From: Muribaculaceae bacterium | GTDB lineage: Bacteria; Bacteroidota; Bacteroidia; Bacteroidales; Muribaculaceae | Direction: 5' to 3' | DNA: 64,000 nt | Assembly: GCA_017427945.1 (NCBI GenBank) | Contig: JAFRRT010000013.1 | Coordinates: 62,001-126,000, forward strand | In this document: piece by piece, positions 4,265 to 35,822 of the stretch | Layout of the letters: each line of letters begins with the position of its first letter | Position numbering within the stretch: the stretch's first letter is position 1 | Notes under the pieces: model-generated | Told to the model about the DNA's origin: nothing | Database searches by the model: none | What the model saw: only the letters and a program-made list of their open reading frames with translations | Translations under genes and position numbers: made by a program

Positions 4265-4272
4265 ACTGCAAT

Positions 4273-5055: not shown

Positions 5056-5066
5056 AAGTTGGCGCT

Positions 5067-17042: not shown

Positions 17043-17143
17043 TGATTAAAACGTAATATCAGCAGATATACTTAATTATATAACAAAAAGGGGGAATACA
17101 AATAAGGCCGTATTCCCCCCTTTTTTACTGCCCAGAGAATCAC
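17043..17143. repeat. Two-part repeat, segment B (copy 1), with terminator hairpin
   Basis: About 100 bases starting TGATTAAAA, around 80% identical to 28571-28668. It contains AAAAAGGGGGAATAC and GTATTCCCCCCTTTTTT (17085-17126), a perfect long stem followed by T's. That hairpin can terminate the M28 transcript. Confidence 0.65.
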
Positions 17144-17247
17144 TAACCCAAAATGAATTCTGTTTAGTGTTCGATTTGTACAATTTTTACTTAACTTTGT
17201 CGTCGCAAGTGAAGAAATTGTGCCACATATCGCTACGGCCTGGAAAG

Positions 17248-19242: not shown

Positions 19243-19264
19243 TCAACCTAAAACGCAATAAAAA

Positions 19265-19612: not shown

Positions 19613-19649
19613 TGAATACGAGTTCTAAACAGTATTCGTAATAAGAATC

Positions 19650-19701
19650 AAGGAACCGCACCCCTTTAGCAGGACAAACTACTACTGGGATGCGGTTCCT
19701 T
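19650..19701. terminator. Bidirectional hairpin between convergent genes
   Basis: AAGGAACCGCA and TGCGGTTCCTT form a perfect 11-bp stem with a 30-base loop, between the HMA gene (+) and the CMD-cupin gene (-). Confidence 0.6.
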
Positions 19702-19723
19702 GTTGATTGGTGGCTGTCAGTTA

Positions 19724-20767: not shown

Positions 20768-20776
20768 TGATTTCTG

Positions 20777-21400: not shown

Positions 21401-21413
21401 ATCGGTATTTGTT

Positions 21414-22397
21414 TTATTGGTCGATGTTTACCAGCGTGTAGTTGCGGCTGCCCAGGCCGATGAGTTCAGCCCATTCGATGGTGTGCATGCCATGCTGCTT
21501 GTCGATGCGGTTCAGCAGGTCGGTGGGGTCGTTCGTGGCGGTCACCTTCTGCTGGTTGATAATATCCACACAGGCCTGATCCAGGGCCACAGGGTCGGTC
21601 GAGGCCAGGATGCCGTAGTCTTCCAGTTTCACCGGTGCGGGATGGTCCACGCAGTCGCAATCGATGCTCATGTTGTTCATCACGCTGATGAAGATGATGC
21701 CCTGCTGCCTGTTGAAGTAGTCCACCACAGCCTGCGCGGCGGCAGCCATCGACTTGAGGAATCCGTCCTGGTTGCCGATGTATTCAGGGGTCCAGAGTTT
21801 ACCCATATCCAGTTTCTCCATCTTGCCTGCCGAGTGGATATAGGCTTTGCCGTTACTGCTGGCGCAGCCGATGGACAGGTTCTTGAGTGCACCACCATAT
21901 CCGCCCATGGGATGCCCTTTGAAATGGCTCAATAGTACCATGAAATCATAGTTGGCTATATGGCCTCCCACGATGTCATACTTGATGTTCGACTGGTCCT
22001 TCACAGGAATGCGTATCTCGTCGTACTCGTCCATGATGTCCACGGGAAAGTACTTCAGGAAACCGTGACGCTCGATGACCTTCCAATGGTTGGCCGACGT
22101 GTTGCGCTCGTCCTGCTCATTGCCCGGTCCGCTGCCATAGGCGGTATTACACTCAACAATGGTGCCGTCCACCTCGAGTACCAGGTCCTTGATAAGTTCG
22201 GGCTTCAGGTAATTGGGGTTACTGCCCTCGCCTGTCGAGATTTTCACTGCCACGCGGCCCTTGGCTTCAACACCAAGCGCCTTGTAGATTTTCACCAACG
22301 ACTCGGGCGTGATCTCTCGGGTAAGATACACCGTGCTCTGCCCGTGTGATGCTATGGCCACCAGGCTCACCAGCATCAATGATAATAACTTCTTCAT
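21414..22397 (-). CDS. Exported DUF362 domain protein
   Basis: A 327-residue protein with an N-terminal signal peptide (MKKLLSLMLVSLVAIASHG), followed by a DUF362 domain. Recognisable family segments are VAVKISTGEGSNPNYL, ECNTAYGSGPGNEQDER and HFKGHPMGGYGGALKN. DUF362 proteins often accompany ferredoxin-type domains, but no CxxCxxC cluster is present here. The reaction is unknown. A signal peptide on such a protein is notable and is shared by two other members of this cluster. Confidence 0.8.
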   Translation of the reverse strand: MKKLLSLMLVSLVAIASHGQSTVYLTREITPESLVKIYKALGVEAKGRVAVKISTGEGSNPNYLKPELIKDLVLEVDGTIVECNTAYGSGPGNEQDERNTSANHWKVIERHGFLKYFPVDIMDEYDEIRIPVKDQSNIKYDIVGGHIANYDFMVLLSHFKGHPMGGYGGALKNLSIGCASSNGKAYIHSAGKMEKLDMGKLWTPEYIGNQDGFLKSMAAAAQAVVDYFNRQQGIIFISVMNNMSIDCDCVDHPAPVKLEDYGILASTDPVALDQACVDIINQQKVTATNDPTDLLNRIDKQHGMHTIEWAELIGLGSRNYTLVNIDQ

Positions 22398-22449
22398 ATC
22401 GCAATTAATTTTATCCGCAAGTTTGACTTTGTCGGACTTACTTTTGCTT

Positions 22450-22480
22450 GGCAGAGTTCAAGCAAGCTTGGCTCTGCTCT
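22450..22480. repeat. Small imperfect palindrome, intergenic copy
   Basis: A 31-base element (GGCAGAGTTCAAGCAAGC, then TTGGCTCTGCTCT) with GCAGAG/CTCTGC ends. It is 28/31 identical to the element at 25266-25296, which lies inside a coding sequence. Confidence 0.6.
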
Positions 22481-22482
22481 AC

Positions 22483-23328
22483 TTAACCGTAAGTCTCGAT
22501 TAAATATTTCACGAAATTCATGTCGCTGAAATTCACGGTGCCTGTGTCGTGCTGGTTCATCGTGGCAATCTGTGCCATATCATCATCGGTCAACGCGAAG
22601 TCCAGGATGTCGAGGTTCTGCGCCATGCGATCCTTGTGGGTGCTCTTGGGGATGGCAATGATTCCACGCTGTGTCAACCAACGCAGGGCCACCTGCGAGG
22701 CCGTCTTGCCGTATTTGGCGCCGATGCTGGCCAACAGTTCGCTCTTGATGATGCCGTCCACGCCTTGTCCGCCCAGCGGGCCCCAAGCCATCATGTTACA
22801 GCCCGTTTCGGCAAGCAGCGGCTCGATACCTCGCTGCTGAATCAATGCGTTGCACTGCAACTGGTTCACCATGGGCTTGATGTCCACATAGTGGTGGAAA
22901 TCGAAGTAGCGCGCCTCCTGGAAGTTCGACACGCCGATGGCACGCACCTTGCCGTCACTATAAGCTTTCTCCATTGCCCGCCACGTCCCGAACACGTCAC
23001 CATAGGCTTGATGGATGAGCAGCAGGTCAATATAGTCTGTCTGCAACTTGTGCAGGCTCTCGTCAATCGATTTGGCAGCCCTCTCTTCGCCGGCATTGCT
23101 GATCCACACCTTTGTTACTAGGAAAATGTCCTCGCGCGGGATGCCGCTCTTGCGCACGGCAAGACCCACGCCTTCCTCATTGGCATAGGCTTGAGCTGTA
23201 TCAATCAGGCGATAACCCACGCTCAATGCATCACTGACGCAACGTTCACACTCCTCAGGACTTACCTGAAACACACCGTAGCCTATAATCGGTATACGAA
23301 TACCGTTGTTCAAAATCACTTCTTTCAT
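22483..23328 (-). CDS. Aldo/keto reductase
   Basis: A cytosolic NADPH-dependent carbonyl reductase of the AKR superfamily (281 residues). The catalytic tetrad is visible: Asp and Tyr in RLIDTAQAYANE, Lys in LVTKVW and His in LLLIHQAYGD. GVSNFQEARY and the NADP-binding IPKSTHKDRM near the C-terminus are conserved. It sits 85 bases before the DUF362 gene and 10 bases after the flavodoxin gene, so it is probably co-transcribed. The substrate is not deducible. Electrophilic aldehyde or quinone detoxification fits the neighbours. Confidence 0.88.
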   Translation of the reverse strand: MKEVILNNGIRIPIIGYGVFQVSPEECERCVSDALSVGYRLIDTAQAYANEEGVGLAVRKSGIPREDIFLVTKVWISNAGEERAAKSIDESLHKLQTDYIDLLLIHQAYGDVFGTWRAMEKAYSDGKVRAIGVSNFQEARYFDFHHYVDIKPMVNQLQCNALIQQRGIEPLLAETGCNMMAWGPLGGQGVDGIIKSELLASIGAKYGKTASQVALRWLTQRGIIAIPKSTHKDRMAQNLDILDFALTDDDMAQIATMNQHDTGTVNFSDMNFVKYLIETYG

Positions 23329-23338
23329 TGCTCAAGAC

Positions 23339-23947
23339 TTATTTTAATCCATTGATCCATTTTTCAACTTTTGCCCTGCCGGTACGCACTTCATGGCCGT
23401 AAATGGAGAACTGGCCCTTGACGGTGGCACCAGGGAACGCGGCTTTCACGTCGCTGACACAGTTGGCCAGACCACTGCCTTCGTGGGTAGTGAACGGGAT
23501 GACCGTCTTGCCATCTAGGTTGATGTCACGGAACAGCGTGAACATCACCTGCGGATAGGTGCCCCACCACACGGGGCCGCCGATGAAGACGGTGTCATAC
23601 TGCGAGAGGTCGGGAGCTTCGCCCTCATAGGGCGGCAACTCACCGTTGTTAGCCTCCTCCTGTGCCAGATGGATGAGTGGTGTGTAGGCCATGCCGTCAT
23701 ACTTGTGGGTGACGATTTCAAACTGGTCGGCACCCGTGATTTCGCTGATGTAGTCAGCCACGATTTTAGTGTTGCCCACTTCGATATTGCCCACGGCGTA
23801 GTTGTCACCGGCGTGGGAAAAGAAAATGACGATTGTTTTACTCATAGTTGTATGATTTGATTGTTTAACTTCCTGTTTGTTCTGCCCGTTGCAGCCTGTT
23901 GCTGTCAGCAAGGCCAAAAAGGCGATGATAATTGATTTGATGTTCAT
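23339..23947 (-). CDS. Flavodoxin with putative lipoprotein signal
   Basis: A 202-residue flavodoxin-family protein. The C-terminal 165 residues contain the FMN fold: IVIFFSHAGDNYAVG, then FIGGPVWWGTYPQ, then FTTHEGSGL. The N-terminus as annotated (MNIKSIIIAFLALLTATGCN) is a lipoprotein signal with a TGC lipobox, unusual for a cytosolic electron carrier. An in-frame ATG at about 23845 (MSKTIVIFF) would give a normal cytosolic flavodoxin, so both products are possible. It is the first gene of the minus-strand operon, and its -7 box lies about 30 bases upstream. Confidence 0.8.
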   Translation of the reverse strand: MNIKSIIIAFLALLTATGCNGQNKQEVKQSNHTTMSKTIVIFFSHAGDNYAVGNIEVGNTKIVADYISEITGADQFEIVTHKYDGMAYTPLIHLAQEEANNGELPPYEGEAPDLSQYDTVFIGGPVWWGTYPQVMFTLFRDINLDGKTVIPFTTHEGSGLANCVSDVKAAFPGATVKGQFSIYGHEVRTGRAKVEKWINGLK

Positions 23948-23975
23948 GTTTCTTGCGCTTAATCAGTTTGATAGT

Positions 23976-23984
23976 GCAAAATTA
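23976..23984 (-). promoter_or_regulatory. Promoter -7 box of the redox operon
   Basis: On the minus strand the box reads TAATTTTGC, with TTG 22 bases upstream (24007-24009). It drives the five-gene flavodoxin-to-CMD-cupin operon and lies in the short divergent region shared with the AraC regulator. Confidence 0.6.
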
Positions 23985-24072
23985 TGGCGAAATTTTGTAA
24001 TGAATACAACCTAATTTGTGGCAAAACTTTCACTTTTTGCGGTTTTTGCTTGAAAACTACCAGAAATCGTGT

Positions 24073-24081
24073 TATCTTCGC
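24073..24081 (+). promoter_or_regulatory. -7 promoter box overlapping the AraC start region
   Basis: TATCTTCGC ends four bases before the ATG at 24085. If it is used, the regulator mRNA would be leaderless or nearly so. Confidence 0.4.
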
Positions 24082-24084
24082 GCC

Positions 24085-24915
24085 ATGCAAAAGCAGGAGA
24101 TAAACCAAAACGACTTCGTTTTCACCAACGACTTCAACGAATGTTGCCGTGCTGAGTATGCCGACTACTGCCTGCACATCCTGTGCCTGAGCGGGGCGGC
24201 ACGGTTTGCCGTTGGCGACACCTTATTTAATGTCATCGGCGGCGATGCCATCATCAAGTCATCGGGCAAGCCGATTACCCATGTTCACTGCTCCGAGGAT
24301 TTCCGCATTAAGGCATTGCTCATCTCGTGGCGGTTTCTTAATGCCAACACGCCGCAGAGCAGTTACAACGTGATTGGCGCGCTCTCGACCACACAGAACC
24401 CAGTGATGTCGATGCAGCAGGCCGACCTTGAGCGCTGCCTGTTGAACTTCGAGGAAATCCGTCGCCGTCTGGAACAACCCTACCATAATTTCTTTGCCGA
24501 CGTGATGCGTCGTGCGGTAGAGACGATGATTCTGGACTTCTACGATATCCATGCCCGTATGACCCATCAGAACATCGAGGGCGTCAGCCAAGCATCACGC
24601 ATCCTCCAGCGGTTTGTGACATTGCTGCAGGAGGGCTTATATAAGAAGGAACGAAGTGTTGAATACTATGCCTCGCGGCTCTTTATCACGCCCAAATACC
24701 TGAGCGAAGCCTGCGTTGCCGTCAGCGGCCATAACGCATCCTATTGGATTGAATACCACTTCTCACAAGAGTTGGCCCGTCAGTTGAACGACCGCTCAAA
24801 ACCCCTCGTTGAGATAGCCCACGAACTCAACTTCTCGTCGCCCTCTTACCTCAGCCGCTACATCAAGCGCGTCTTCGACTGCTCGCCCAGCGAGTACCGC
24901 AAGCGCCTGAAGTAG
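24085..24915 (+). CDS. AraC-family transcriptional regulator
   Basis: A 276-residue regulator starting at ATG 24085 (MQKQEINQNDFVF). An earlier in-frame ATG at 24016 would start upstream of the likely promoter. The N-terminal half resembles a cupin-like sensor domain (LCLSGAARFAVGDTLFNV). The C-terminal hundred residues are the AraC double helix-turn-helix: SVEYYASRLFITPKYLSEAC, then PLVEIAHELNFSSPSYLSRY and FDCSPSEYRKRLK. It is transcribed away from the five-gene redox operon, sharing a gap of about 137 bases. It is therefore the likely controller of that operon. The inducer is unknown. Confidence 0.87.
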   Translation: MQKQEINQNDFVFTNDFNECCRAEYADYCLHILCLSGAARFAVGDTLFNVIGGDAIIKSSGKPITHVHCSEDFRIKALLISWRFLNANTPQSSYNVIGALSTTQNPVMSMQQADLERCLLNFEEIRRRLEQPYHNFFADVMRRAVETMILDFYDIHARMTHQNIEGVSQASRILQRFVTLLQEGLYKKERSVEYYASRLFITPKYLSEACVAVSGHNASYWIEYHFSQELARQLNDRSKPLVEIAHELNFSSPSYLSRYIKRVFDCSPSEYRKRLK

Positions 24916-24971
24916 CATGACAACCCGGAGAATGTTTTGCCATGAAGCCGATGAGGAATCGGCAGGTTTGT

Positions 24972-25595
24972 CTATTTCATTCGTTTCTCGAACTTGAACA
25001 GGCCGTCTTCCTGGTCAAATTGACTTGCCATATGCGGGTCGGGGTGATGCTCGTTGAAGAACTCGACGGCATGGAAGCCGCAGCGGTTGATGTAGAAGTG
25101 GATGTTTCGGCGGTCGAAATACGGGGTGCAGGTCTCCCACAGTTCAACCTCGGGATGCCTCGTCTCAATGGCTTTCCAGATTGCCTGACCGATGCCCCTG
25201 CTCTGTACACCCACCTTCACATAAAGGAACGCCAGTTGGCCTACGGTCTTCTTCTGTCGCGACTCGGCAGAACTCATGCAAGCTTGGCTCTGCTCTCGCT
25301 GCTCCATCAGTTCACCTTCATGCATCGAGCTATCGATGGTAATGATGGCACCGCCCACACGCTGGCCGTCGGCATCGACAGCCTCGTAGGCTTCGGCGCC
25401 CTCAGCCCTCAATGACCTGTAAAAGTCCTCATCAGGCAGCACCTGCCACTGGTTGGGGTCTTTTCCATCGTCTTTATTATATGCCTGGAAACCATGCTGG
25501 AACGCTTCCTGCATCTCTTCCTTGAAAGCAACAGTGTGCTCCTCAACGAGCCGAATCAATTGTATTCTCTTTTCCATTGGATATAGAGGTTTCAT
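24972..25595 (-). CDS. GNAT-family N-acetyltransferase with in-frame palindrome insert
   Basis: A 207-residue acetyltransferase of the GNAT superfamily. The acetyl-CoA binding core is visible as LAFLYVKVGVQSRGIGQAIW (the RGIG loop), followed by LWETCTPYFDRRNIHFYINRCGF. Before the core, residues about 101-111 (EQSQACMSSAE) are encoded by a 31-base palindromic repeat that is also found in intergenic DNA at 22450. The insertion keeps the frame and falls in the loop before beta strand 4. The ATG overlaps the crcB stop as ATGA, so the two genes are translationally coupled. The substrate is unknown. Confidence 0.82.
   Translation of the reverse strand: MKPLYPMEKRIQLIRLVEEHTVAFKEEMQEAFQHGFQAYNKDDGKDPNQWQVLPDEDFYRSLRAEGAEAYEAVDADGQRVGGAIITIDSSMHEGELMEQREQSQACMSSAESRQKKTVGQLAFLYVKVGVQSRGIGQAIWKAIETRHPEVELWETCTPYFDRRNIHFYINRCGFHAVEFFNEHHPDPHMASQFDQEDGLFKFEKRMK
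25266..25296. repeat. Small imperfect palindrome, coding copy
   Basis: GGCAGAACTCATGCAAGC followed by TTGGCTCTGCTCT, with GCAGA/TCTGC ends. It is the relative of 22450-22480 (three differences in 31) and is translated inside the GNAT gene. Confidence 0.6.
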
Positions 25596-25957
25596 TTAGC
25601 TAGCCAGTAACCTAGGGCAACACAAGAGACACCAAGGACAACACTTCCTATCGCATACAGACAAAAGGCGGTAATATTGCCATTCTGTAGAAGGGTCAGT
25701 GCTTCTTTAGAGAAGGTTGAGAATGTGGTGAAACCGCCACAAAGTCCAACGGTCAAGAACAAATTGACACTTGGCGAGAAGTTGGGATGCCTGCCGGCAA
25801 AACCGCAGATTAACCCTATGATTAGACAACCAACAAGATTCACCGTGAACGTGCCCCACGGAAACACGTTATGTGACCTCATAGCTATAGCAATCAGGTA
25901 ACGCAACACGCTACCAAGAAAGCCTCCAGCCCCGATATAAAGAAGATCTTTTATCAT
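25592..25957 (-). CDS. crcB: Fluoride channel CrcB/Fluc
   Basis: A small inner-membrane fluoride exporter channel that works as an antiparallel dimer. The 121 residues contain four hydrophobic helices. Family motifs present are GGFLGSVLRYL, FPWGTFTVNLVGC and GLCGGFTTFSTFSKEA, which includes the central sodium-binding and Phe-box region. No fluoride riboswitch is possible upstream, because the likely -7 box is only about 10 bases from the ATG. It is the first gene of a pair with the GNAT gene. Confidence 0.93.
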   Translation of the reverse strand: MIKDLLYIGAGGFLGSVLRYLIAIAMRSHNVFPWGTFTVNLVGCLIIGLICGFAGRHPNFSPSVNLFLTVGLCGGFTTFSTFSKEALTLLQNGNITAFCLYAIGSVVLGVSCVALGYWLAK

Positions 25958-25966
25958 AATGCAGGT

Positions 25967-25975
25967 GCAAAGATA
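25967..25975 (-). promoter_or_regulatory. -7 promoter box of crcB
   Basis: The minus strand reads TATCTTTGC ten bases before the crcB ATG, implying a very short leader. The -33 element is weak. Confidence 0.5.
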
Positions 25976-26065
25976 CAGCTTTTTCCGAGATTTCTATGGG
26001 CTCTTCGCATAGTATTTACGCCGATTTTGGTCATGATTGAGACCAAAAATCCCCTGTTTTAGGTA

Positions 26066-26098
26066 TTGCCGCGCGTGTTATTCTCGCTGTACATTTGC
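26066..26098 (+). promoter_or_regulatory. Bacteroidota-type promoter
   Basis: TTG at 26066-26068, a 21-base spacer and TACATTTGC at 26090-26098, 24 bases before the methyltransferase ATG. Confidence 0.6.
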
Positions 26099-26122
26099 AG
26101 CCTAATATAAATCATTAAAGTT

Positions 26123-26734
26123 ATGGGATTATTAAAATCTTTTTTTACTAATTGCGCCAATCCTAAAGGACGGATGGGGCGACTGATGCTATGTTTTATG
26201 AATTTCGGTCACGCGCCGCTCACCAACTGGGGGCTGGATATTGTCGATTTTCAGGACGAATGGACCATGCTTGACATCGGCTGCGGTGGTGGTGCTACAC
26301 TGAAGAGGCTGCTCAAGAGAAGCAACGGCAGCCGGGTATATGGTATCGATATCTCGGAGGAGAGCGTAGCAAAGGCACGCAAGGTGAATGACGCACTGCT
26401 CGGCAAACGGGTGTTTGTGACACAAGGTTCTGCCGAGAAACTGCCTTACGACGATGGCCTGTTCGACCTCGTGACTGCGGTCGAGACGGTCTATTTCTGG
26501 CCCAGCCTGCCCGACTGCCTACAAGAGGTGCACAGGGTGCTGAAGCCGGGCGGTAGTTTTGCCATCATGGTGGAAGTGCTGGAGGCGGACTCTAAGTGGA
26601 CAGACCTTTGTGAGGGCATGACCGCCTATACACCAGAGCAGTTGAAAGACTTGCTCGACGAAGCGGGATTCATCCAGACGGGAATCCACCGAAAGAAACC
26701 GTCATACGCCACTATCCTCGGCGTAAAGCCATAA
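26123..26734 (+). CDS. Class I SAM-dependent methyltransferase
   Basis: A 203-residue Rossmann-fold methyltransferase of the UbiE/type 11 kind. Motif I is MLDIGCGGGATLK, the acidic end of strand 2 is YGIDISEE, and the motif IV/post-I region is FDLVTAVETVYFWPSL, with the family marker EVHRVLKPGG. No signal peptide is present. The substrate is not deducible. It heads a plus-strand group with an ECF S-component-like membrane protein and a second methyltransferase. Confidence 0.85.
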   Translation: MGLLKSFFTNCANPKGRMGRLMLCFMNFGHAPLTNWGLDIVDFQDEWTMLDIGCGGGATLKRLLKRSNGSRVYGIDISEESVAKARKVNDALLGKRVFVTQGSAEKLPYDDGLFDLVTAVETVYFWPSLPDCLQEVHRVLKPGGSFAIMVEVLEADSKWTDLCEGMTAYTPEQLKDLLDEAGFIQTGIHRKKPSYATILGVKP

Positions 26735-26755
26735 CTATGCACACAATTAAAAACT

Positions 26756-27310
26756 ATGAGCAAAATCAGCTATTTACGGACTTTGGGCTTTGCGGCCCTT
26801 TATGTAGTGACCATCTTCATGACCGCTTTTCTGGGATTTCTTGCCCCCTGGGCTTGGGTTTTCTTTCCTGTTGTTACAGCCCTGATAGGGGCCTTATCCT
26901 ATTATTGCACAGCTATTAGATGGCAAAAGTTTGGAGTAGGCACATTACTCGCTGTTGCCCTTGCTGCCTTCCTGCTGGCAGTTGGCGAGTGCGACCTGTC
27001 AAAAGCCCTACTGATGCTGTTGTCTGGCGTGTTGTCTGATGTTGTCCGACATCTCATCGGTTATGCCACATTGAAAGGACAGTCGTTAGCTTATCCCGTA
27101 TTATCAATAGGTGTCATTGCCTGGATTCTGCCGCTGTGGACTCGCACGGAATGGTATTACCAGGGTGCCACCGAAGAAATTGGGGTTGACTACGCAAACG
27201 GATTAATGACGTTTGCCAGTCCTTGGTGGCTTCTGGCTGTTGTACTGACGACAGCCGTGGCTGGATTTTTGGGCATCAGGTTTGCTTCAAAGGTTATCAA
27301 GTCAAAATAA
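26756..27310 (+). CDS. Integral membrane protein, MptD/Trep_Strep-type ECF S-component-like
   Basis: A 184-residue protein with about five to six hydrophobic segments (for example ALYVVTIFMTAFLGFLAPWA and WWLLAVVLTTAVAGFLGIRF). Overall length, topology and the GVLSDVVRHLIGY segment resemble the Trep_Strep/MptD family of substrate-binding membrane subunits of ECF transporters. No ECF ATPase or T-component gene is nearby, so it would have to share a general energising module encoded elsewhere. The ligand is unknown. It begins 21 bases after the methyltransferase stop. Confidence 0.55.
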   Translation: MSKISYLRTLGFAALYVVTIFMTAFLGFLAPWAWVFFPVVTALIGALSYYCTAIRWQKFGVGTLLAVALAAFLLAVGECDLSKALLMLLSGVLSDVVRHLIGYATLKGQSLAYPVLSIGVIAWILPLWTRTEWYYQGATEEIGVDYANGLMTFASPWWLLAVVLTTAVAGFLGIRFASKVIKSK

Positions 27311-27374
27311 CCTTGCAACCTGGTTGCGCTCAGTCTGGTGTGCCTTTGCACACACAAACGAAAGCAAAACGATT

Positions 27375-28037
27375 ATGGCAGACAGAATCAAGAAATCATA
27401 CAAGTTTAGTAAACGTTTCTATGACGATGCGCTTACGCAGAGCAAATGGTGGAGCCGCTTGTATTTCAAGTGGCTGTGGGGCGGAGTCGATGACAACCGG
27501 ATTGCCGACGCAGTCTTGGGTTACATCCCTGATGACTTCTCGGGACGGCTGCTTGACGTCCCCGTCGGCACGGCTGTGTTCACGGCCGAAAAGTATGGCC
27601 GCCTTACTCAAGCCGACATCACTTGTGTGGACTATAGCCGAGACATGTTGGAACAAGCCGAAAGACGGTTCCGTGAAGCCAACATCAGCAATATCAAGAC
27701 TATGCAAGGCGATGTGGGCGCACTGCCGTTCAATGACGGTACGTTCGACATTGTGCTTTGCATGAACGGGCTTCATGTGTTCCCCGACAAGTACAAGGCA
27801 TACGACGAAATCCTCCGCACCTTGAAGACGGGCGGCAAGCTGCTGGCCTGCTTCTACATTGCAGGCGAGAAAAAGACCGCCGATTGGCTTGCCAAAACCG
27901 TCATGACGCGCATGAGCTGGTTCACGCCGCCTTTCGACACCGTCGATGATGTGCGGCGCCGACTGGAACCAAACTATGAGATTCTTGATTTCCAAGTGGA
28001 GGGTGCTATGCTTTATTTCAGGGCAAAAAAGAAGTGA
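27375..28037 (+). CDS. Class I SAM-dependent methyltransferase
   Basis: A second methyltransferase of 220 residues from ATG 27375 (MADRIKKSYKFSKRFYDD). An upstream in-frame ATG at 27282 lies inside the previous gene and is unlikely. SAM-binding motif I reads RLLDVPVGTAVFT, which lacks the usual GxGxG glycines (PVGTA). ITCVDYSRDML and FDIVLCMNGLHVFPD follow, and then EILRTLKTGGKLLACFYI. It is not a close copy of the methyltransferase at 26123. The substrate is unknown. A degraded trxB fragment begins directly after its stop. Confidence 0.82.
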   Translation: MADRIKKSYKFSKRFYDDALTQSKWWSRLYFKWLWGGVDDNRIADAVLGYIPDDFSGRLLDVPVGTAVFTAEKYGRLTQADITCVDYSRDMLEQAERRFREANISNIKTMQGDVGALPFNDGTFDIVLCMNGLHVFPDKYKAYDEILRTLKTGGKLLACFYIAGEKKTADWLAKTVMTRMSWFTPPFDTVDDVRRRLEPNYEILDFQVEGAMLYFRAKKK

Positions 28038-28041
28038 TGTG

Positions 28042-28293
28042 GATACGATACTGATTGGATTGTTTGTACCGATGCTTGGCATCGTGCTCGGCTCGACAAT
28101 GGTGTTCCTGAACGGCCAGATTTACCTTGATGAGTAAGGCTACATCAAGTTGACAAGTCATAACACCGCTACCAATGTCGAGGGCATCTTTGCCGCTGGC
28201 GACGTCGCCGACCTGCACTACCGTCAGGCCATCATAGCAGCCGCAGCAGGCTACCGAGCCGCCATCGATGTGAAACACTACATATCACAATAA
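28042..28293 (+). pseudogene. trxB: Remnant of thioredoxin reductase (C-terminal third)
   Basis: The translation in this frame matches only the C-terminal part of TrxB: FLNGQIYLDE, a stop (TAA at 28135-28137) where Asn is expected, then GYIKLTSHNTATNVEGIFAA and GDVADLHYRQAIIAAAAGYR to a normal end. The FAD-binding GDVAD motif survives, but the N-terminal FAD domain and CxxC active site are missing. The piece before FLNGQ has drifted beyond a readable GHxPNT motif. It begins within a few bases of the methyltransferase stop. This is a 5'-deleted, nonsense-mutated relic next to the island boundary. Confidence 0.8.
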
Positions 28294-28450
28294 TTTTGTC
28301 CTCATTCTTATAAAGAACGACGCAAAGGCTCTGAATATCTTTGAAATAGACATTATTTTCCAATATAAAATCTATCAATCCCCAAATTTGACTAAAATCA
28401 ATTACCCTATGCCGAAAACAGTGGGTTCAAGAGCAGGGTCTTAAAAAGAA
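28294..28450. other. AT-rich spacer without a recognised feature
   Basis: Between the trxB remnant and the duplicated tmRNA end I see no gene, promoter or hairpin that can be supported. Confidence 0.5.
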
Positions 28451-28506
28451 TAAAAATAAGTCGCTGATATTCAGCGACTTAAGTCGGTGGAGCTGGAGGG
28501 GCTTGA
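28451..28506 (-). repeat. Duplicate of tmRNA 3' end and terminator (att-like)
   Basis: About 56 bases match 35389-35444 with four differences. They include the tmRNA acceptor/T-arm end (GGTGGAGCTGGAGGGG on the plus strand) and its terminator hairpin (AAGTCGCTGA/TCAGCGACTT, loop TAT instead of ATA). It is in the same orientation as the real tmRNA end and lies 6.94 kb from it. A direct repeat of a tmRNA 3' end is the usual footprint of site-specific integration. Confidence 0.75.
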
Positions 28507-28508
28507 GA

Positions 28509-28550
28509 ATGATATGACTTTTTAATACTTGATGTTATATTTTAATGATT
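28509..28550. repeat. Two-part repeat, segment A (copy 2)
   Basis: Relative of 15262-15304. Here it is followed after only 20 bases by segment B. Confidence 0.6.
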
Positions 28551-28570
28551 TTCAGCGGGTTATGAGATTT

Positions 28571-28668
28571 TGATTAAAATGTCACATCAGCAACTATGCT
28601 TATTATATCACAAAAGGGGGGAATACAAAACGGCCTTTATTCCCCCTTTTGTGTCCGTAGAAAATCAT
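28571..28668. repeat. Two-part repeat, segment B (copy 2), with hairpin
   Basis: Relative of 17043-17143. It contains a stem of CACAAAAGGGGG with CCCCCTTTTGTG (28609-28653), with AATA/TATT continuing inside past a one-base G bulge. The hairpin could stop the minus-strand operon ending at 28799. Confidence 0.65.
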
Positions 28669-28798
28669 TTACTGGTTGCCCATGAAAATCTAAAGGCGGA
28701 TTACTATTACAGGAAATCTGCACTTTACTAACTTTTTAGACATGAATCTAATTATTTGGCTCTAACAGAGCCCTCATTAAGGGTCTTTTTTTATTACG

Positions 28799-31009
28799 TT
28801 ATGCGTAGCTGTGCATGCCTCCGAGGATGAAATTGACGCCGAAGTAGGTGATGAGAACGCTAAGGAAGGCGATGATGCAGTAGCCGTGGAAAAACATGGG
28901 TTTGCTGAACAACTTCAGTGATTGGTTGTGCAGGGGCAAAGCATAGACAATGAGCGTGATCAGTGCCCATGTTTCTTTGGGATCCCAACTCCAGTAAGTT
29001 CCCCATGAAACATTGGCCCATACAGCACCGATGAACACACCTGCAGTCAAAAGAAAAACGGCAGGATAGAGAATGACCTGCCCCACAACGTGCAGACGCT
29101 CAACCATGGCTTGGTCACGACGAACCGTGAACGCCAGCACTCCTCCCAACATAAGGAAGGCCAGCAGGGCATAAGCGACCATAATGACCGCGACATGGAT
29201 GCTCAGCAGCGGTGAGGCAAGCACGGGCATCAACTGGGTAATCTGCGGGTTGCTCTCGCCGAAGGATGCCACCATCAATGCCAGTCCTGCTGTGAGAATA
29301 CCGAACGGCAGAATCAGCATCAGTTTTCTGTGGGATAACAGGGTCAGCGCCATCGTCGCCCATGCCATGAACTGCATGGTTTCAAATCCGTTGCTCATGG
29401 GCACATGGCCACTGATAATCCAGCGCAGGATGAGTGCGGTAGTGAGGTAAGCCAGCGAGAGGGCAAGAATGACAATGGCTGCAATCCTTACCCCTCGCGG
29501 CAACCGCTGCGAACGTGCCACACAGCGGCATGTGATGATGAACAGGATGATGCCTAGGGTGGCTAGTGCCATCGACAACGGGCGATCCCATTCCATGCTG
29601 TTGTACAGTTTTTCAGCCCTGAATGCGGTGTCGCTGGGCAGCATGTCACCGCATTCTTTGGTCTGATACTTCTTGAGTTTGGTTATGAATTGGTTTGCTC
29701 CGTTCCAGTCTTGTGCGCTGACCATCTCATAGAGATAGTCCATGCCGTTGCGCAGGAATAGCCATTTGCCGTCGTCAATGTCGTGTGGTACTTCTAGCGA
29801 GCCGTGGCTGTACCATTCGAGTTTGCCGCCATGATTGAGAGGGAACAGTTTTATCATAGTGCCTGCTGCGACCATGTTGGCTATCTGGTAACGCTCGTCG
29901 GATTCGCCCAAGGCGCGTATGGTGGCCTGGTCATCGACGGCCTGCAGGCTGTCGATGGCTTGCTGAATCTTTCCGGTTGAAACCGTACGGTAGAAGTCCT
30001 CGAGCGAGGCATACTTGCCATCTATACCCAAAAGGCGTCGCACGTTGCCGTTTTTCACCTTAATCATCGGCTCGTCTTTCCAGTCATCATAGTAGAATAT
30101 CCATCCTGATGCCACCTGCTCGGCAGTGAGACCTTTATAGGTTGTTTTACCGCAGAGTTTTGCCGTGAACTGGCGGGCAAACGTCTGGAACGGGCAGATG
30201 CGATTGTTGTGAAGTATGTACAGGTTACCCATATTGTCAGCGACATCGCGTGGCAGTGTGCGGGGTTGGGCACTTGCCGTGAAAGTGGCTGTAAGGAACA
30301 GAATCACAGCCAAAGTGCCACGTTTGAGTAGGGGGTGGCGTAGCAGTGCCCTGAAAGCCGTCCTGCGGTCAATAAGCACGGCAATCATGCCCGCGAGTAG
30401 CAGACCATAGCCCACGTAAGTCACACCGATGCCCCACGGGTCATGCGCCACGGTGAAGACAGCCCCGCGTCCCTCAGCGTCATAGCCTGACTGGTAGAAG
30501 CGGTAACCGCGATGGGAGAAAACCTTGTTCATAGAGACTGTTCCCGTTACGGTCGTGCCGTCGGCATCATTGATTTGGATACGGCTCACAAAGTCCATCG
30601 GTGACGGCGTGCCGGGATAGGTCTGGATATCGAAGGACTCGAGTGTGACCGTGAACGGCAGCGTGTGGCGGGTGCCGTCGGTTGTGGTGAAAACATCGAT
30701 GGCTTGATCATTCATCACCTGCATCTTACCATGCAGGGCCGTGAACCAAGTGATGCCCGCACCACACAGGATGATCAGCAGTGCAAGGTGGAGCAACATT
30801 ACCGCAGGCCGTTTCCATATCCTGCGCAACAGCATGTAGCACAGCCCAGAAACCGCAATGGCTGTCCATAACGCCACAAAGGCGATGTTGTCATAAAACC
30901 AGGCTCTTGCCGCTGGCGTTCCATTGGTTTTCTCTACCACAGTGGCTGTTGCCAATACTGCAAGCATGACGATAAGGCACCCAAAGGATATGCGTTTCAA
31001 TGTTTTCAT
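28799..31009 (-). CDS. Cytochrome c biogenesis protein, fused CcsB/ResB-CcsA (System II)
   Basis: This 736-residue inner-membrane haem-ligation enzyme attaches haem to CxxCH motifs of exported cytochromes. The N-terminal part has ResB-like helices and a periplasmic domain (about residues 1-480). The C-terminal part is CcsA-like, with the haem-handling WWD-type motif WGTYWSWDPKETW. Helix histidines lie in HVAVIMVAYALL and in the final helix region (YALPLHNQSLKLF). It is the last gene of the porin-imelysin-DHOR operon, 78 bases after the di-haem protein, which is its obvious client. Fused CcsBA is known in Bacteroidota and epsilonproteobacteria. Confidence 0.88.
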   Translation of the reverse strand: MKTLKRISFGCLIVMLAVLATATVVEKTNGTPAARAWFYDNIAFVALWTAIAVSGLCYMLLRRIWKRPAVMLLHLALLIILCGAGITWFTALHGKMQVMNDQAIDVFTTTDGTRHTLPFTVTLESFDIQTYPGTPSPMDFVSRIQINDADGTTVTGTVSMNKVFSHRGYRFYQSGYDAEGRGAVFTVAHDPWGIGVTYVGYGLLLAGMIAVLIDRRTAFRALLRHPLLKRGTLAVILFLTATFTASAQPRTLPRDVADNMGNLYILHNNRICPFQTFARQFTAKLCGKTTYKGLTAEQVASGWIFYYDDWKDEPMIKVKNGNVRRLLGIDGKYASLEDFYRTVSTGKIQQAIDSLQAVDDQATIRALGESDERYQIANMVAAGTMIKLFPLNHGGKLEWYSHGSLEVPHDIDDGKWLFLRNGMDYLYEMVSAQDWNGANQFITKLKKYQTKECGDMLPSDTAFRAEKLYNSMEWDRPLSMALATLGIILFIITCRCVARSQRLPRGVRIAAIVILALSLAYLTTALILRWIISGHVPMSNGFETMQFMAWATMALTLLSHRKLMLILPFGILTAGLALMVASFGESNPQITQLMPVLASPLLSIHVAVIMVAYALLAFLMLGGVLAFTVRRDQAMVERLHVVGQVILYPAVFLLTAGVFIGAVWANVSWGTYWSWDPKETWALITLIVYALPLHNQSLKLFSKPMFFHGYCIIAFLSVLITYFGVNFILGGMHSYA

Positions 31010-31087
31010 CTGGAAAGACTGAAAGGTGGAGAGCGGTTAAACCGACCCTCCACCCGAATTATACTATATGAAGAGTTGTTATAGCCA

Positions 31088-32680
31088 TTAAATGGACTCG
31101 ATAAAGGTCACCATCGCATCACGGTCAGCCTTACTGAGTTGGCGGAACTTCTCGACGCTGCGGCGGGCATCACTCTGGGCGTTGCCGTGCCACATGATGG
31201 CCTCGATGACATTGCGGGCGCGGCAGTCGTGCAGACGGTCGTCGGCACCGGTGCATTTCTTGCTCAGGCCACGTCCCCACAGCGGTGTGGTACGGCACCA
31301 GCCCGTGCGGATGTCATTGACCATGTACATGCGGTGCTGAATCAGGTCGGTATAGGGCCAGATGGTCTGATGCGGATAGCGGGGCAGCATGTCGGCATAG
31401 GCTCCGACAAAGAAGTTGTTCGGGTCGCGGATGACGTCATCGCCCGTAGTCCAGCTGGGACGGTGGCAATAGGCGCAGCCAATCTCGGTGAACAGTTCCT
31501 TGCCCCGCAGGAAGTCGGCATCATTGACGTTTCGGGCTGCAGGAACAGCAAGGCCACGGTGCCATGCCATAAGGTCGATGTACTCCTGGTCGGTCATCTC
31601 CACGTCGAGCGTCTTGCTCATCAGGTAGTTGTAGATGTCGGTCTCGGGGTCGCCGGTCACATTCTGCTTGGGGAAGTACTTGTAGAAGTCGGCCTGCACC
31701 TCAGGATCCTTACTGGCGATGGTGGCGTAGGCAGCGGTCATGTAGTGATAGCGGCGGTCGCTGCGGGTGACGTTGGTGATGTTCCAGATGGCGTTAGCAC
31801 CAGCGCCGTCCTGCAGGTTGGCACGTGACAGGGCATAGGTGTAGCGGCGCACGTACTTGGTGCCGTCGCCTTGTGCAGTGTTGGAATAGTAGTTGAAGTC
31901 GCTGCCATTCCAGATGGCGGGGTTGAGCGTCACACCTGCGGCCTGTTCAGCCTCGTACTGGGCACGGATGTCCTTCTCATCAATGGCGTCGAGCAGACCT
32001 GTTCCATAGAGACCGATGGTGCTCTCCAGGCGCACGCGCAACTGGCTGTAGTCGATGTCCTTGCCTCCTACCTGCAACGGCACATAGAATGCGCTCAGCG
32101 GGATGGTGACTTCGGGATAGATGAGGCTGTAGGTCTCGCCGTCAGGGAAGCGGTTGCCCCACTCATCGGTGTATTCGCGCCAGTCGATGACGATCTGGCT
32201 CTCGTCGATGGGTGCCTTGAAAGGTTTTTGAGCCTGGGTCTGCGGCATACCCGTAAGCGACGACAGGTAAGTGTCATTCTCATCGGTGAGCACAAGCAGG
32301 TAGCCGTTGCCCTGCACGTTGGAATTATAATTCAACTGTCGGGCGCCATGACCGTAGCTAGGATGGCAGGTGATGCAGGCATCGCGCACCCACAACGGTC
32401 CCAATCCGCGCATAGGCGTTGACATGCTCGTATCGGAGTCAAACGGTGATTCAAAGATGCGCTCACCACGTTTGAATGATGCCAGCAGTCCCTGCTTATT
32501 GATGGCTTCGGTTTCTTGTTCGTAAGCCGAAGCGGTTACATTGCTGGTTGTGCCCAATCGGCCACCTGTGTAATAGTAGTCGGGCAATTCGGGCGTCACT
32601 TCATTGCCACCGCCCTTCTCATCGCTGCACGATGCCAGGGCTAGAAATGTCAGCGCCAATAATATCCAATGCTTTTTCAT
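31088..32680 (-). CDS. Di-haem oxidoreductase-family lipoprotein (DHOR/thiol oxidoreductase type)
   Basis: A 530-residue c-type cytochrome with two haem-attachment motifs: CITCH (in WVRDACITCHPSYGHG) and CAYCH (in TEIGCAYCHRPSW). The N-terminus MKKHWILLALTFLALAS ends in a lipobox Cys followed by SDEKGGG. Acidic residues right after the Cys resemble the Bacteroidota signal for surface-exposed lipoproteins. Proteins of this DUF1111/DHOR group are widely linked to imelysins in iron-regulated operons, as here. The physiological reaction is unsettled; redox handling of iron is inferred. Confidence 0.87.
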   Translation of the reverse strand: MKKHWILLALTFLALASCSDEKGGGNEVTPELPDYYYTGGRLGTTSNVTASAYEQETEAINKQGLLASFKRGERIFESPFDSDTSMSTPMRGLGPLWVRDACITCHPSYGHGARQLNYNSNVQGNGYLLVLTDENDTYLSSLTGMPQTQAQKPFKAPIDESQIVIDWREYTDEWGNRFPDGETYSLIYPEVTIPLSAFYVPLQVGGKDIDYSQLRVRLESTIGLYGTGLLDAIDEKDIRAQYEAEQAAGVTLNPAIWNGSDFNYYSNTAQGDGTKYVRRYTYALSRANLQDGAGANAIWNITNVTRSDRRYHYMTAAYATIASKDPEVQADFYKYFPKQNVTGDPETDIYNYLMSKTLDVEMTDQEYIDLMAWHRGLAVPAARNVNDADFLRGKELFTEIGCAYCHRPSWTTGDDVIRDPNNFFVGAYADMLPRYPHQTIWPYTDLIQHRMYMVNDIRTGWCRTTPLWGRGLSKKCTGADDRLHDCRARNVIEAIMWHGNAQSDARRSVEKFRQLSKADRDAMVTFIESI

Positions 32681-32701
32681 GTTTCTCGTGTTTTAAGATT
32701 T

Positions 32702-33856
32702 TTATTTAAGTCCTTCGATGGCTGCATCCAGGGCATCAAGCAACTGGTTGCAGGCGTCAACGGCCTTCTGTGTCTCGCTTTTGCTCAGGTGGTTGCGGAA
32801 AGGAGCGGGCATGCACGATACTTCCTTGATGGCGTTATCGATGGCACTGCGCACGTTGCTGTCGAGTGATGCGTTTACCTTATTCATATAGGCTGCCAAC
32901 GAGTTGTTGTTGACTGTGCCGTCAAGTGAGCCGTAATAGGCGTTGCGCACGCTGCGGATGTTGTCGGTGAAGTCGGCGATGGAATTCCAGCTGTACCAGG
33001 ACTCCACGTCAAGAACGTTGCCCGAGTTCACGGGGTCGGTGATTTTGGTATTGCCCACCTCGTCACTGATGTCGCTGGCACCGGTCAGGATCTGTTCCAT
33101 GGCTGCAAGTTGAGTCTTGTAAAGACTGTTTCCAGCCTTTCCGGCATCAATCATGTTCTCACCGTAGTTGAAAGAAGGCTCCAGTTCATGTTCCTCAAGG
33201 ATAGCACGTTTGGCGCTGCTGATGTTGTTCATGCCCGCCCATGAGGCTTCAAGACGCACGGTCTGGTTGGCGAGGTCTTGGGCAACGGCAGCGTTGTAGA
33301 TGAGTTCGCGCTCGGTGATGTCGCCCACGTTGCGGGCGGCACCGTCACGGAAGAGCACGTACTCCACAGCATGGAAACCCAGCAGACCATAGCCCAACGT
33401 TGCAAAAGCGTCGGCTCCCGCGCCATCCTCGTCGAGGGCTGCGATGAGCGAACTGTTGTTCAGGATGTTGTCTAGTTGGGACTTCTGCAGGGGCCATGAG
33501 TCAATGTGCGGATCAATGTTGTAGTCGGCGGCGGCACCGAACAGGAAGGCCTCGCTCAGTTCCCAATATTTGCGGGCACTGATCCACTTGTCGCAGCACT
33601 CCTGGACTTTGCCCTGTGTTGGATTCTCGCGCAACTGCTGGCACAATGCGGCCAGTTCATTGGCTTCATCGGCCAGAGATTTGTAGGTGGGAACGACAAC
33701 GCCGTTCACATACTGGGTGATGATGGCCGTTTTCTTGCTGTCAAGCTGGTTGGGATCAGGGTCATCGTTACTGTCGCTGCAAGCGGCAAACCCCAGCGTC
33801 ATGCCCGCAAGTGTGACGAGCATGAGCGCGTTCTTGAAAAGTTCAATTGCTTTCAT
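32702..33856 (-). CDS. Imelysin-family lipoprotein (IrpA/M75-like)
   Basis: A 384-residue imelysin. The signal peptide MKAIELFKNALMLVTLAG is followed by a lipobox Cys and SDSNDDPDPN, an acidic stretch that fits surface export. The imelysin GxHxxE-type motif appears as GFHAVEYVLF. IDPHIDSWP and SYNG-type helical-bundle segments are also present. Imelysins are iron-regulated and implicated in iron or haem uptake, and no peptidase activity is established. It lies 21 bases upstream of the DHOR gene and 46 bases downstream of the porin gene. Confidence 0.9.
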   Translation of the reverse strand: MKAIELFKNALMLVTLAGMTLGFAACSDSNDDPDPNQLDSKKTAIITQYVNGVVVPTYKSLADEANELAALCQQLRENPTQGKVQECCDKWISARKYWELSEAFLFGAAADYNIDPHIDSWPLQKSQLDNILNNSSLIAALDEDGAGADAFATLGYGLLGFHAVEYVLFRDGAARNVGDITERELIYNAAVAQDLANQTVRLEASWAGMNNISSAKRAILEEHELEPSFNYGENMIDAGKAGNSLYKTQLAAMEQILTGASDISDEVGNTKITDPVNSGNVLDVESWYSWNSIADFTDNIRSVRNAYYGSLDGTVNNNSLAAYMNKVNASLDSNVRSAIDNAIKEVSCMPAPFRNHLSKSETQKAVDACNQLLDALDAAIEGLK

Positions 33857-33902
33857 TTGTTCTATCTTTTTATGGTTAACGTGTTTGTGTCATAGTGGTG
33901 TC

Positions 33903-35225
33903 TCAGATATGGAAAAGGCCACTGTAGCAGATGCCCAGGCTCACTGTCGGTTCGTTGTTGTACTGCGATGAAAGGATGCGGTAGCTGTATTCGCCCTTGA
34001 TGACGATCTGCGGTATGGGATAGTAGTTGACGCCCGCAGTGACCTTCTGGCGCTGCCACATCTTCTCGTCGGTCATGTTCTTGACCGTCTTGTACATCGA
34101 GTCATAGTAGTCATAACGTCCGAACAGATACAGCCGTTGCCCGTCGGCATGCAGGCGGGCAACTTGTGAAAAGATGTCATAACCTGCCTCGATGCCCAAT
34201 GCGATAGCGGCCTCACCGATGTTGGTCTTGGGGAAGGGAGAGTCAGCACGGGTGGACATGTTGGCGGTAGTGATTTCGAGCGAGTTGCTCAGGTGGCCGT
34301 AGTCAAAGTTGCCGCGAGCCACGATGTTGTGGTCATTGTACAGGAAGTCCACCGCACCGATGGCTACGGTGCCGTGCAGACCATTGTACTTGCCCGTGGC
34401 GTTGAGCGTGTTATTGGCGCTGTTGCCCAGATAGCCACTAACACTCAGGCGCAGACCTTTGATGGAACGGTTGTCGATGCGCAGCGCACCGGCATAGGAG
34501 GTTGCCATCTTGAACTCGTAGGGGCTGCCTGCGCCATCGTGGATCCATCCCTTGTTGCCGAATCGGTCAGCGTCCAGGCCTGCGATAAACATCGCCTCGT
34601 AGCGCCACTTGCCCACGTTTCCCCACAGGCTCACGCCTGTCTCATGCCATGTGCAGGGCATGATTGTGTTCTCGCCCTCGGGACGATAGACAGTGAAGAA
34701 TTCGGTGGGCATGTGCGCGTTATTCGTTCCACCCACAGGCACAACCATGTGGCCCATGCGCAAGTTCACAGCGTGCGAGAAAGATTTCTGCAGCCAGAAC
34801 TGCTCGAGGGCGACTTCGCCTCCACGTTCCACTTCAGATTCATATTCGCCGGTCTCTTCTTCCTCGATTTCGACAGCGCTCTCGGTGCCGCCGTGCTCAA
34901 ACTCAATCTCGGTTCCCAGCGACCACCCTTTGCCGAAGTCGTAGCCCAGATAAAGGACCACATGGGGCAGGTCAAACTGACCGAAGCCCTTGTCACCCTT
35001 GTAGAGTTCGGCATTGGTGTAACGCTTGTAGTTGTTGCTATAGAACATGCGACTGGCCACAGCCTCGCCATAGCCGCCGATGGTCAGCCGGTGGGTAGGC
35101 GTCTCGGTGGGTGTCTCAGACACTTCGGCCTGGGGCTTCTCCAGCAGATTGTCAGCGTGAATTGCTGCCGTGCCTATCGTCATACATGCCAGCAGTGTTG
35201 TCAGTAATCTCGTTGCCATTTTCAT
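33903..35225 (-). CDS. Outer-membrane porin-like protein
   Basis: A 440-residue outer-membrane beta-barrel with a signal peptide (MKMATRLLTTLLACMTIGTA AIHA region) and a C-terminal strand ending CYSGLFHI. Alternating amphipathic strands run throughout (for example LTIGGYGEAVASRMFYSNNY and VVLYLGYDFGKGWSLGTEIE). An acidic loop VEIEEEETGEYESEVERGGE stands out near residues 115-135. It resembles phosphate-selective or general porins of Bacteroidota. It is the first gene of the operon that continues with imelysin, DHOR and CcsBA. Diffusion of an iron or haem ligand is an inference from that context. Confidence 0.82.
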   Translation of the reverse strand: MKMATRLLTTLLACMTIGTAAIHADNLLEKPQAEVSETPTETPTHRLTIGGYGEAVASRMFYSNNYKRYTNAELYKGDKGFGQFDLPHVVLYLGYDFGKGWSLGTEIEFEHGGTESAVEIEEEETGEYESEVERGGEVALEQFWLQKSFSHAVNLRMGHMVVPVGGTNNAHMPTEFFTVYRPEGENTIMPCTWHETGVSLWGNVGKWRYEAMFIAGLDADRFGNKGWIHDGAGSPYEFKMATSYAGALRIDNRSIKGLRLSVSGYLGNSANNTLNATGKYNGLHGTVAIGAVDFLYNDHNIVARGNFDYGHLSNSLEITTANMSTRADSPFPKTNIGEAAIALGIEAGYDIFSQVARLHADGQRLYLFGRYDYYDSMYKTVKNMTDEKMWQRQKVTAGVNYYPIPQIVIKGEYSYRILSSQYNNEPTVSLGICYSGLFHI

Positions 35226-35246
35226 ATTTTATATAGTTTATCGGCT

Positions 35247-35278
35247 GCAAAATTACCCAGACGGTGACCGCTATACAA
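35247..35278 (-). promoter_or_regulatory. Promoter of the porin-imelysin operon
   Basis: The minus strand reads TTG, a 20-base spacer, then TAATTTTGC (35255-35247), 22 bases before the porin ATG. No obvious Fur-type palindrome was found by eye. Confidence 0.65.
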
Positions 35279-35293
35279 TCCCAAAATCAAATG

Positions 35294-35330
35294 AAAAAAA
35301 ACGCTCCCCCTCACTATTTTTGGGGAGAGC
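35294..35330 (-). terminator. Rho-independent terminator between tmRNA and the porin operon
   Basis: On the minus strand GCTCTCCCC pairs with GGGGGAGC and is followed by GTTTTTTTT. It insulates the porin operon from tmRNA read-through. Confidence 0.65.
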
Positions 35331-35395
35331 CTGCATTTGTCGCAACTATTTTTAACCAACCAATATTACTAAATAAAAATACAGGGGGTAAAAAT

Positions 35396-35418
35396 AAGTC
35401 GCTGAATATCAGCGACTT
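35396..35418 (-). terminator. ssrA: tmRNA terminator hairpin
   Basis: AAGTCGCTGA and TCAGCGACTT form a perfect 10-bp stem directly after the tmRNA 3' end, followed on the minus strand by TATTTTTA. Confidence 0.7.
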
Positions 35419-35422
35419 AAGT

Positions 35423-35822
35423 CGGTGGAGCTGGAGGGGTTTGAACCCTCGTCCAAACGTGGAACTAATAAGGTTTCTACATGCTTAGTCCTGACTTGGT
35501 TTTCGATTGACGGCAGGCTCTGGACCACCAACCGCCAACTTATCCTCTAAATTTCAGACGCGGCCCGAGGCTTGCCTTGTCCTATCGCCGATATTCCTGC
35601 ACCACCGTTTCAACCCGCCTCGGCGCGAGGGCAGTTGGGTGATGTCTCGTCACAACCCCTTGGGCTGTGATAAAGCCGAACTTACTGTGCTTCGGTTAGG
35701 CAGCGAGAGCGTAGTTGTTTTCGCCATTTAAAAATGTCAATGACTGATATTATAGAGCATAGCCATTATCGCTCTGCATGCTTGCTTACCACTTCTACAC
35801 GCTGTCAAAGCCAGTCAGCCCC
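35423..35822 (-). ncRNA. ssrA: tmRNA (trans-translation RNA)
   Basis: The minus strand begins GGGGCTGACTGGCTTTGACA, the standard tmRNA 5' end. It finishes with the T-arm and acceptor GGGTTCAAACCCCTCCAGCT followed by CCACC. The 5' GGGGCTG pairs with CAGCTCC. The mRNA-like part encodes GENNYALAA and a TAA stop (35725-35696), the tag type seen in Bacteroidales. The RNA is about 400 nt and rescues stalled ribosomes by adding this degradation tag. The encoded end reads ACC then G, so the final A of CCA is not in the DNA and must be added or trimmed and repaired. The 3' end is duplicated at 28.45 kb. Confidence 0.95.

Follow-up and report, generated by a model that had tools for sequence, protein, structure and literature searches.

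We analysed a stretch of 64,000 nt from a Muribaculaceae bacterium (GenBank assembly GCA_017427945.1, contig JAFRRT010000013.1, positions 62,001 to 126,000; referred to below, at its full length, as the window), in which the 3′ end of ssrA, the gene for tmRNA, is present twice. The copy that lies away from the gene is, with high probability, the right attachment site (att) of a cassette that a tyrosine integrase inserted at the 3′ end of the gene. We also propose, with somewhat less than even confidence, that in some gut Bacteroidales ssrA may serve an integron-like capture system as its point of entry. The units, each of several genes but without a recombinase, would start with a terminator that re-terminates ssrA, finish in a common att of ∼180 bp and pass from species to species through the action in trans of an integrase specific for ssrA.

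The 56 bases at 35389-35444, which comprise about the last 20 bases of tmRNA and its terminator, recur on the same strand at 28451-28506 with 52 of the 56 bases identical (blastn E 4e-20 within a 19.9-kb stretch). The direct repeat described in an earlier note on this DNA is thus real. It is composite, consisting of a 13-bp ssrA core (GTGGAGCTGGAGG at 35425-35437 and 28487-28499) plus a terminator hairpin. The ssrA gene, the anchor of the array, occupies 35424-35822 on the minus strand, as do all cassette features of the window described here, and its last 13 bp form the putative recombination core. The near core CCTCCAGCTCCAC (35425-35437) lies within the ssrA 3′ end, and the far core CCTCCAGCTCCAC (28487-28499) is the displaced ssrA end. 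The hairpin at 35395-35419, now the ssrA terminator, would be the left end of a first cassette (cassette 1), and that at 28457-28481 the left end of a second (cassette 2). In the window genome (2.77 Mb in 39 contigs, 96.3% complete) no third copy of the repeat was found elsewhere at E ≤ 0.001. At this threshold the other matches of the far copy were the ssrA end and, on the opposite strand, its palindromic terminator. As in islands that target tmRNA genes, the far boundary carries a displaced ssrA 3′ end in the same orientation.

The DNA downstream of ssrA was compared from 30 congeneric genomes; the whole collection consisted of 101 genomes of the genus, with one genome per species. In three relatives, G018, G006 and G026, a second ssrA end was present downstream at 14, 4.6 and 13 kb, respectively. 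About 180 bp just inside this second end are conserved among these genomes and the window, despite unrelated cargo. In the sample of open reading frames (ORFs) that was annotated, the G018 cassette carries a BspA-like leucine-rich repeat protein with an ORF of 3262 residues and an ATPase, that of G006 an ATPase and a TOTE primase-helicase, and that of G026 a GH97 polysaccharide locus. The conserved segment, the att, consists of GGGGGAATA and TTGTATTCCCCC arm-like repeats, an A + T-rich middle, TATCATTC, seven bases and CCTCCAGC. At the right end of cassette 1 the arm-like repeats up to TATCATTC occupy 28500-28657.

The pattern TATCATTC-N7-CCTCCAGC was found at 17 places in 13 of the 101 genomes, against 0 for a reversed-pattern control, and blastn detected att in 22 of the 101. 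All 17 full att copies on the 12 contigs holding both features lie downstream of ssrA and on its strand, and the partial second att of the window does likewise. This count disregards matches to the ssrA end as well as partial hits that the palindromic arms gave on the opposite strand; on further contigs with att, ssrA was not on the fetched stretch. The arrays consist of one to four same-strand cassettes behind ssrA. An att profile located four copies in G082, with distances from ssrA of 13, 22, 35 and 60 kb; there are two in each of G018 and G025, the window has one full and one worn copy, and the others have one. Cassette limits were placed by hand and give sizes of about 1.8-25 kb, with the proximal limit of an integrase-bearing cassette in G073 being arbitrary, as ssrA is outside the fetched stretch. 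The variable spacer before the core was considered as a free coupling sequence, an idea that was dropped because the spacer tracks att subtype. Viral contigs gave 7 matches to the 16-base att pattern and 6 relatives of the tyrosine integrase int1 described below (29-37% identical), but at none of the 13 did the att profile match.

The ssrA end might instead have been duplicated by chance or by recombination, with no site-specific integration, which would explain the repeat itself and nothing further. We consider this extremely improbable, since about 30 copies of att are followed by the core, with an integrase next to some of these.

When only cores with at most one mismatch were counted, 11 of the 12 at ssrA ends and 19 of the 24 at att ends were followed by a hairpin with a stem of at least 8. 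Control stretches 400 bases further on gave 0 of 12 and 2 of 24, and four cores of unclear class had a hairpin in two cases. Since most cores precede a hairpin, a cassette appears to begin with its own terminator and to end with att and core. In the mechanism we propose, the cassette would consist of this terminator hairpin, the cargo and the ∼180-bp att, which closes with the final 13 bp of ssrA, CCTCCAGCTCCAC. By recombining with the ssrA end, this core would restore ssrA and supply it with the terminator of the newcomer. Each newcomer would push older cassettes outward, so that ssrA would be the entry site of a tandem array and the newest unit would adjoin it. Integration would be catalysed by int1, and cassettes without an integrase would depend on one acting in trans or would travel along with a neighbouring cassette that encodes one. 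The loops of the two terminators in the window repeat are inverted (ATA versus TAT), which had been taken as a sign of an old event. Because, on this reading, the two hairpins belong to the left ends of cassettes 1 and 2, the difference is no evidence of age.

The sequences suggest that cassettes lacking an integrase are passed from one species to another, with ends that match. The GH97 cassette, which has no integrase, is 99.4% identical between G026 and G082 from end to end (13,137 nt), compared with 78.6% for the 2 kb upstream of ssrA in the same two genomes; it is also present in G007 (96-99% identical). TOTE cassettes of G025, G061, G106, G076 and G082 are 90-94% identical. For the six pairs among G025, G061, G106 and G082, for which flanks were compared (G076 was not included), cassette identities are 90.2-93.5% versus 75.8-81.1% for the ssrA-upstream flanks. 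The TOTE cassette heads the array in G025, G061, G106 and G076; in G082 it comes second, behind the GH97 cassette, an order that is compatible with entry next to ssrA. The same downstream flank (79% identical over 5.8 kb) lies behind the TOTE cassette in G106 and behind an integrase cassette in G112.

Such blocks could also be spread by homologous recombination, for example after transformation, using the homology of ssrA and att and requiring no integrase. Hosts do share flank and att homology, and no transfer genes were seen in the annotated cargo sample, although no search was aimed at relaxases. However, the stretch shared by G026 and G082 starts ∼5 nt past the core and stops at the next core, and the DNA behind it differs, the far flank of G026 matching no other stretch compared. 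We regard homologous recombination as distinctly improbable.

Alternatively, the array could be a graveyard, in which each unit came as an integrase-bearing ssrA island, lost its integrase and is now immobile. Integrase-bearing forms do exist, and some units are worn or fused: the second att of the window is decayed, and unit 2 of G082 and one G006 unit each join two cassettes. Yet integrase-free cassettes are common to several species at identities above those of the flanks, as given above for the GH97 and TOTE cassettes. Moreover, with the G073 integrase cassette left aside, PF00589 had no match (E ≤ 0.001) in any of the 19 cassettes of 12 genomes that were scanned. The cassettes of G113, G076 and G032 were judged integrase-free by their ORFs and by int1 searches, not by PF00589. 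We consider this explanation unlikely, though well worth keeping in mind.

Returning to exchange by an integrase in trans, the candidate enzyme is int1, a tyrosine integrase that stands beside att in 2 of the 24 outlined cassettes. In G073, an att of the same family is followed within ∼200 bp by two tyrosine recombinases and then by McrBC/nSTAND-type genes; the arm-binding domain is above the Pfam cut-off in the second of these recombinases and just below it in the first. G112 has one recombinase, int1 (72% identical), located between ssrA and an att with core at a distance of 8.4 kb. These two loci (G112:C17 at ssrA and G073:C30 beside an att of the same family) support the earlier suggestion that the ssrA 3′ end serves as an integration site. 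The arginine, HxxR, GH and tyrosine motifs of int1 are intact in 12 of 12 aligned relatives. The 79 int1-relative loci fetched are nearly all from Bacteroidales records. Among 28 relatives inspected, 12, including those of G073, G112, G105 and G002, have the ssrA core (exact or with one mismatch) 198-425 bp upstream of int1. The arrangement extends to other genera. In Bacteroides cellulosilyticus DSM 14838, ssrA lies 23.6 kb from a displaced core beside an int1 relative on the same strand, and in Phocaeicola vulgatus ATCC 8482 the distance is 42.9 kb, the int1 relative being 50% identical and again on the same strand. Relatives of int1 were found in 42 phage and 32 plasmid records; all are <60% identical, the best-ranked among the matches listed being ∼36%.

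The 43-kb ssrA island of P. vulgatus ATCC 8482, between ssrA and the displaced core, is at ∼2.197-2.240 Mb of NC_009614.1. Relatives of the second G073 integrase occur as adjacent pairs away from att contigs (G105:C23, G111:C11 and G082:C44) and form another element family. The int1 relatives of G017, G032, G107 and G068 (loci L200, L201, L202 and L204) have similar arms but a different core, GCGCTATGCTCCAC, plus a hairpin, so a second site seems to be in use within one and the same integrase clade.

Several observations weigh against the proposed integration of cassettes at ssrA by a tyrosine integrase. The analysis is inference from draft assemblies, and recombination was not observed. No ssrA core was found upstream in 16 of the 28 int1 relatives inspected, and at least four relatives carry the different core just mentioned. 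Across 124 aligned columns, the att of the window (type 1) has just 65% identity with the integrase-adjoining att of G073 (type 2), which is trimmed by the locus edge in this comparison, and the scanned genomes yielded no att of type 1 next to an integrase. Close int1 relatives (≥58% identity) occur in 16 genomes and att in 23 (pattern and blastn hits pooled), with an overlap of 6 among the 101 genomes (Fisher p 0.19). Co-occurrence of int1 and att across genomes, which was tried as a line of evidence, therefore shows no association beyond chance. The TOTE genes of G006 share only ∼68% identity with their counterparts in the remaining TOTE cassettes, below the 77-82% of the flanks, so this cassette was not recently shared. 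The ssrA-upstream DNA of G112 has no match among the other ten compared, and neither window cassette matches any other outlined cassette.

In the window, the repeat copies enclose four genes of substance, as the earlier note had stated. These encode a porin-like outer-membrane protein (33903-35225; the label is that of the earlier note, with no Pfam or NCBIfam match), an imelysin (Peptidase_M75; 32702-33856), the di-haem oxidoreductase DHOR (31088-32680) and a CcsBA-type cytochrome c assembly protein (28799-31009; Cytochrom_C_asm and ResB domains, under the NCBIfam CcsB cut-off). The G + C content of cassette 1 is 0.535 versus 0.512 for the window, no strong contrast. The absence of an integrase between the repeats also holds, in that the window contig gave no tyrosine-recombinase profile match; in the window genome as a whole, neither G073 integrase has a relative at 1e-20. 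Cassette 1 has retained the two cores and the att around four genes without a mobility match (no profile search for relaxases was made), which is the first mark of a cis-mobilizable element (CIME). With a haem/iron-type operon, it looks intact at both sites. Because no int1 was found in the window genome, it is probably static until a helper arrives.

Cassette 2 (17132-28486, ∼11.4 kb) is worn. It carries a trxB fragment (recognized by eye), two methyltransferases, a Trep_Strep membrane protein, CrcB and a GNAT protein, followed by flavodoxin, an aldo/keto reductase, DUF362, an FMN reductase, a CMD/cupin protein and a TonB receptor. At its distal end is a decayed att that has lost its core (17038-17131; profile E 2e-20, first third of the profile only). 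Inspected by eye, cassette 2 starts with DNA similar to that in front of the ATPase gene in the G006 cassette and then runs into the trxB fragment.

According to the earlier note, the window could hold a single old, stripped integrative element that delivered a haem/iron operon. The repeat and the cargo are as it described, and the direction it took was right, with the operon as cargo, but its element was too small. Its far copy, 28451-28506, leaves out the ∼180 bp of att just inside it (to about 28657), and the decayed second att at 17038-17131 lies beyond its limits of 28451-35444. A lone stripped element was rejected because att occurs elsewhere in congeners, in the same family but with other cargo; cassette 1 is the first unit of a cassette array, not a lone relic. 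The operon is also independent of the element. CcsBA matches of some kind occur in 33 of 61 congeneric genomes, many being distant homologues, and the operon was found whole or in part at 15 loci fetched from relatives, with all four genes at 10. Neither ssrA nor att was present at any of these 15 loci (stretches of ≤20 kb, several cut by contig ends), and few of the neighbours listed are in common. Taken literally, these loci are of the kind that the earlier note named as refuting its reading. Since relatives hold the operon with no att or ssrA nearby, its arrival in the genus through cassette 1 was likewise rejected; as a cassette it was seen in the window genome only, within our sample. We judge a single stripped element and nothing more to be very improbable.

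G019 and G024 are candidates for an unoccupied site. Both have a common flank directly behind ssrA, with no att within 57 and 29 kb downstream, respectively. G019 carries a partial att on another contig. Behind cassettes, the only trace of this flank was a weak match of 137 nt to G006, given by the related flank of G023. The G024 ssrA (L062 2280-2420, G024:C17) is without the last 13-bp core, and its T-arm runs into the terminator, owing to a deletion or an assembly error; such a tmRNA would be without an acceptor end.

Three further observations concern the cargo and surroundings of the cassettes. The gene set of the integrase-bearing cassette of G073 (L166, G073:C30 80228-96000), which includes McrBC, nSTAND and EVE/HNH, is defence-like. 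An ORF of 162-171 residues lies near att in otherwise different cassettes (G082 units 1 and 2, G007, G026, G113 and G006:C24); it is a DUF3990 protein in G113, with similar sequence in G082 and G006, and is perhaps a stabilising or exchange module. At the far side of the window (1-6080), five proteins are 82-95% (one 59%) identical to G003 proteins 10-16 kb downstream of ssrA (L050 12014-18270). With tmRNA identity between the window and G003 at 83%, this resemblance looks like a block transfer.

Integrons have a fixed entry site, add cassettes beside it and have an integrase that can be used in trans, and the ssrA arrays would resemble them in these three respects. They are unlike integrons in that the cassettes are about 1.8-25 kb and mostly hold several genes, the att is of another kind and the integrase is not encoded at the entry site; the window contig lacks the tyrosine recombinase expected of an integron (no attC model was run). 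The staphylococcal cassette chromosome (SCC) is inserted at rlmH/orfX. Composite SCC islands are similar in having tandem cassettes at one site, some without a recombinase (PMC3146451), but they use serine recombinases and a site at another gene.

The closest parallel is in Dehalococcoides, for which 31 ssrA islands are described, 16 with an integration module and 15 without, the latter proposed to be cis-mobilizable (PMC3146451). There too, tandem units lie downstream of ssrA, are bounded by a repeat of its 3′ end and carry metabolic cargo. The Dehalococcoides islands use a serine recombinase (DsiB, CcrB-like) and a 20-bp repeat, whereas the Bacteroidales arrays have a tyrosine recombinase and a ∼180-bp conserved att. 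The recombinase beside the related att is a tyrosine recombinase, and no recombinase of either class was recognised in the window cassettes (no profile search for serine recombinases was made). The Bacteroidales arrays further differ in having a terminator at most left ends, in belonging to another phylum and in their closely matching integrase-free cassettes across species. Stacks of att-flanked, integrase-free units at one site also recall CIMEs and accretion (PMC3146451, PMC5704250); cis-mobilisation of the Bacteroidales cassettes would be a further likeness. With tRNA/tmRNA islands in general (Islander, PMC4383910), they share a tyrosine integrase, a regenerated tmRNA end and a displaced far fragment, but most of the units outlined here have no integrase and many stand in arrays. 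Another report (PMC6764341) concerns an Arg-tRNA site, not ssrA. Among titles and the beginnings of abstracts in the open-access literature, we found no description of tandem integrase-free cassettes at ssrA in Bacteroidales. Four features appear to be new beyond the Dehalococcoides architecture: a tyrosine integrase, an att that is both long and conserved, a terminator that is portable, and the sharing of integrase-free cassettes across species.

The arrays provide a second example of the Dehalococcoides type of ssrA array, one that would rely on the other class of recombinase. They point to a site, a family of att sequences and a candidate integrase that may allow gut and rumen Bacteroidales to exchange operons in their entirety. 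Cassettes that have no integrase gene can be found with the att profile, so that units missed by integrase-based island finders become countable. If ssrA is the entry site of such a capture system, metabolic operons, polysaccharide loci and defence genes would circulate among these bacteria as interchangeable units.

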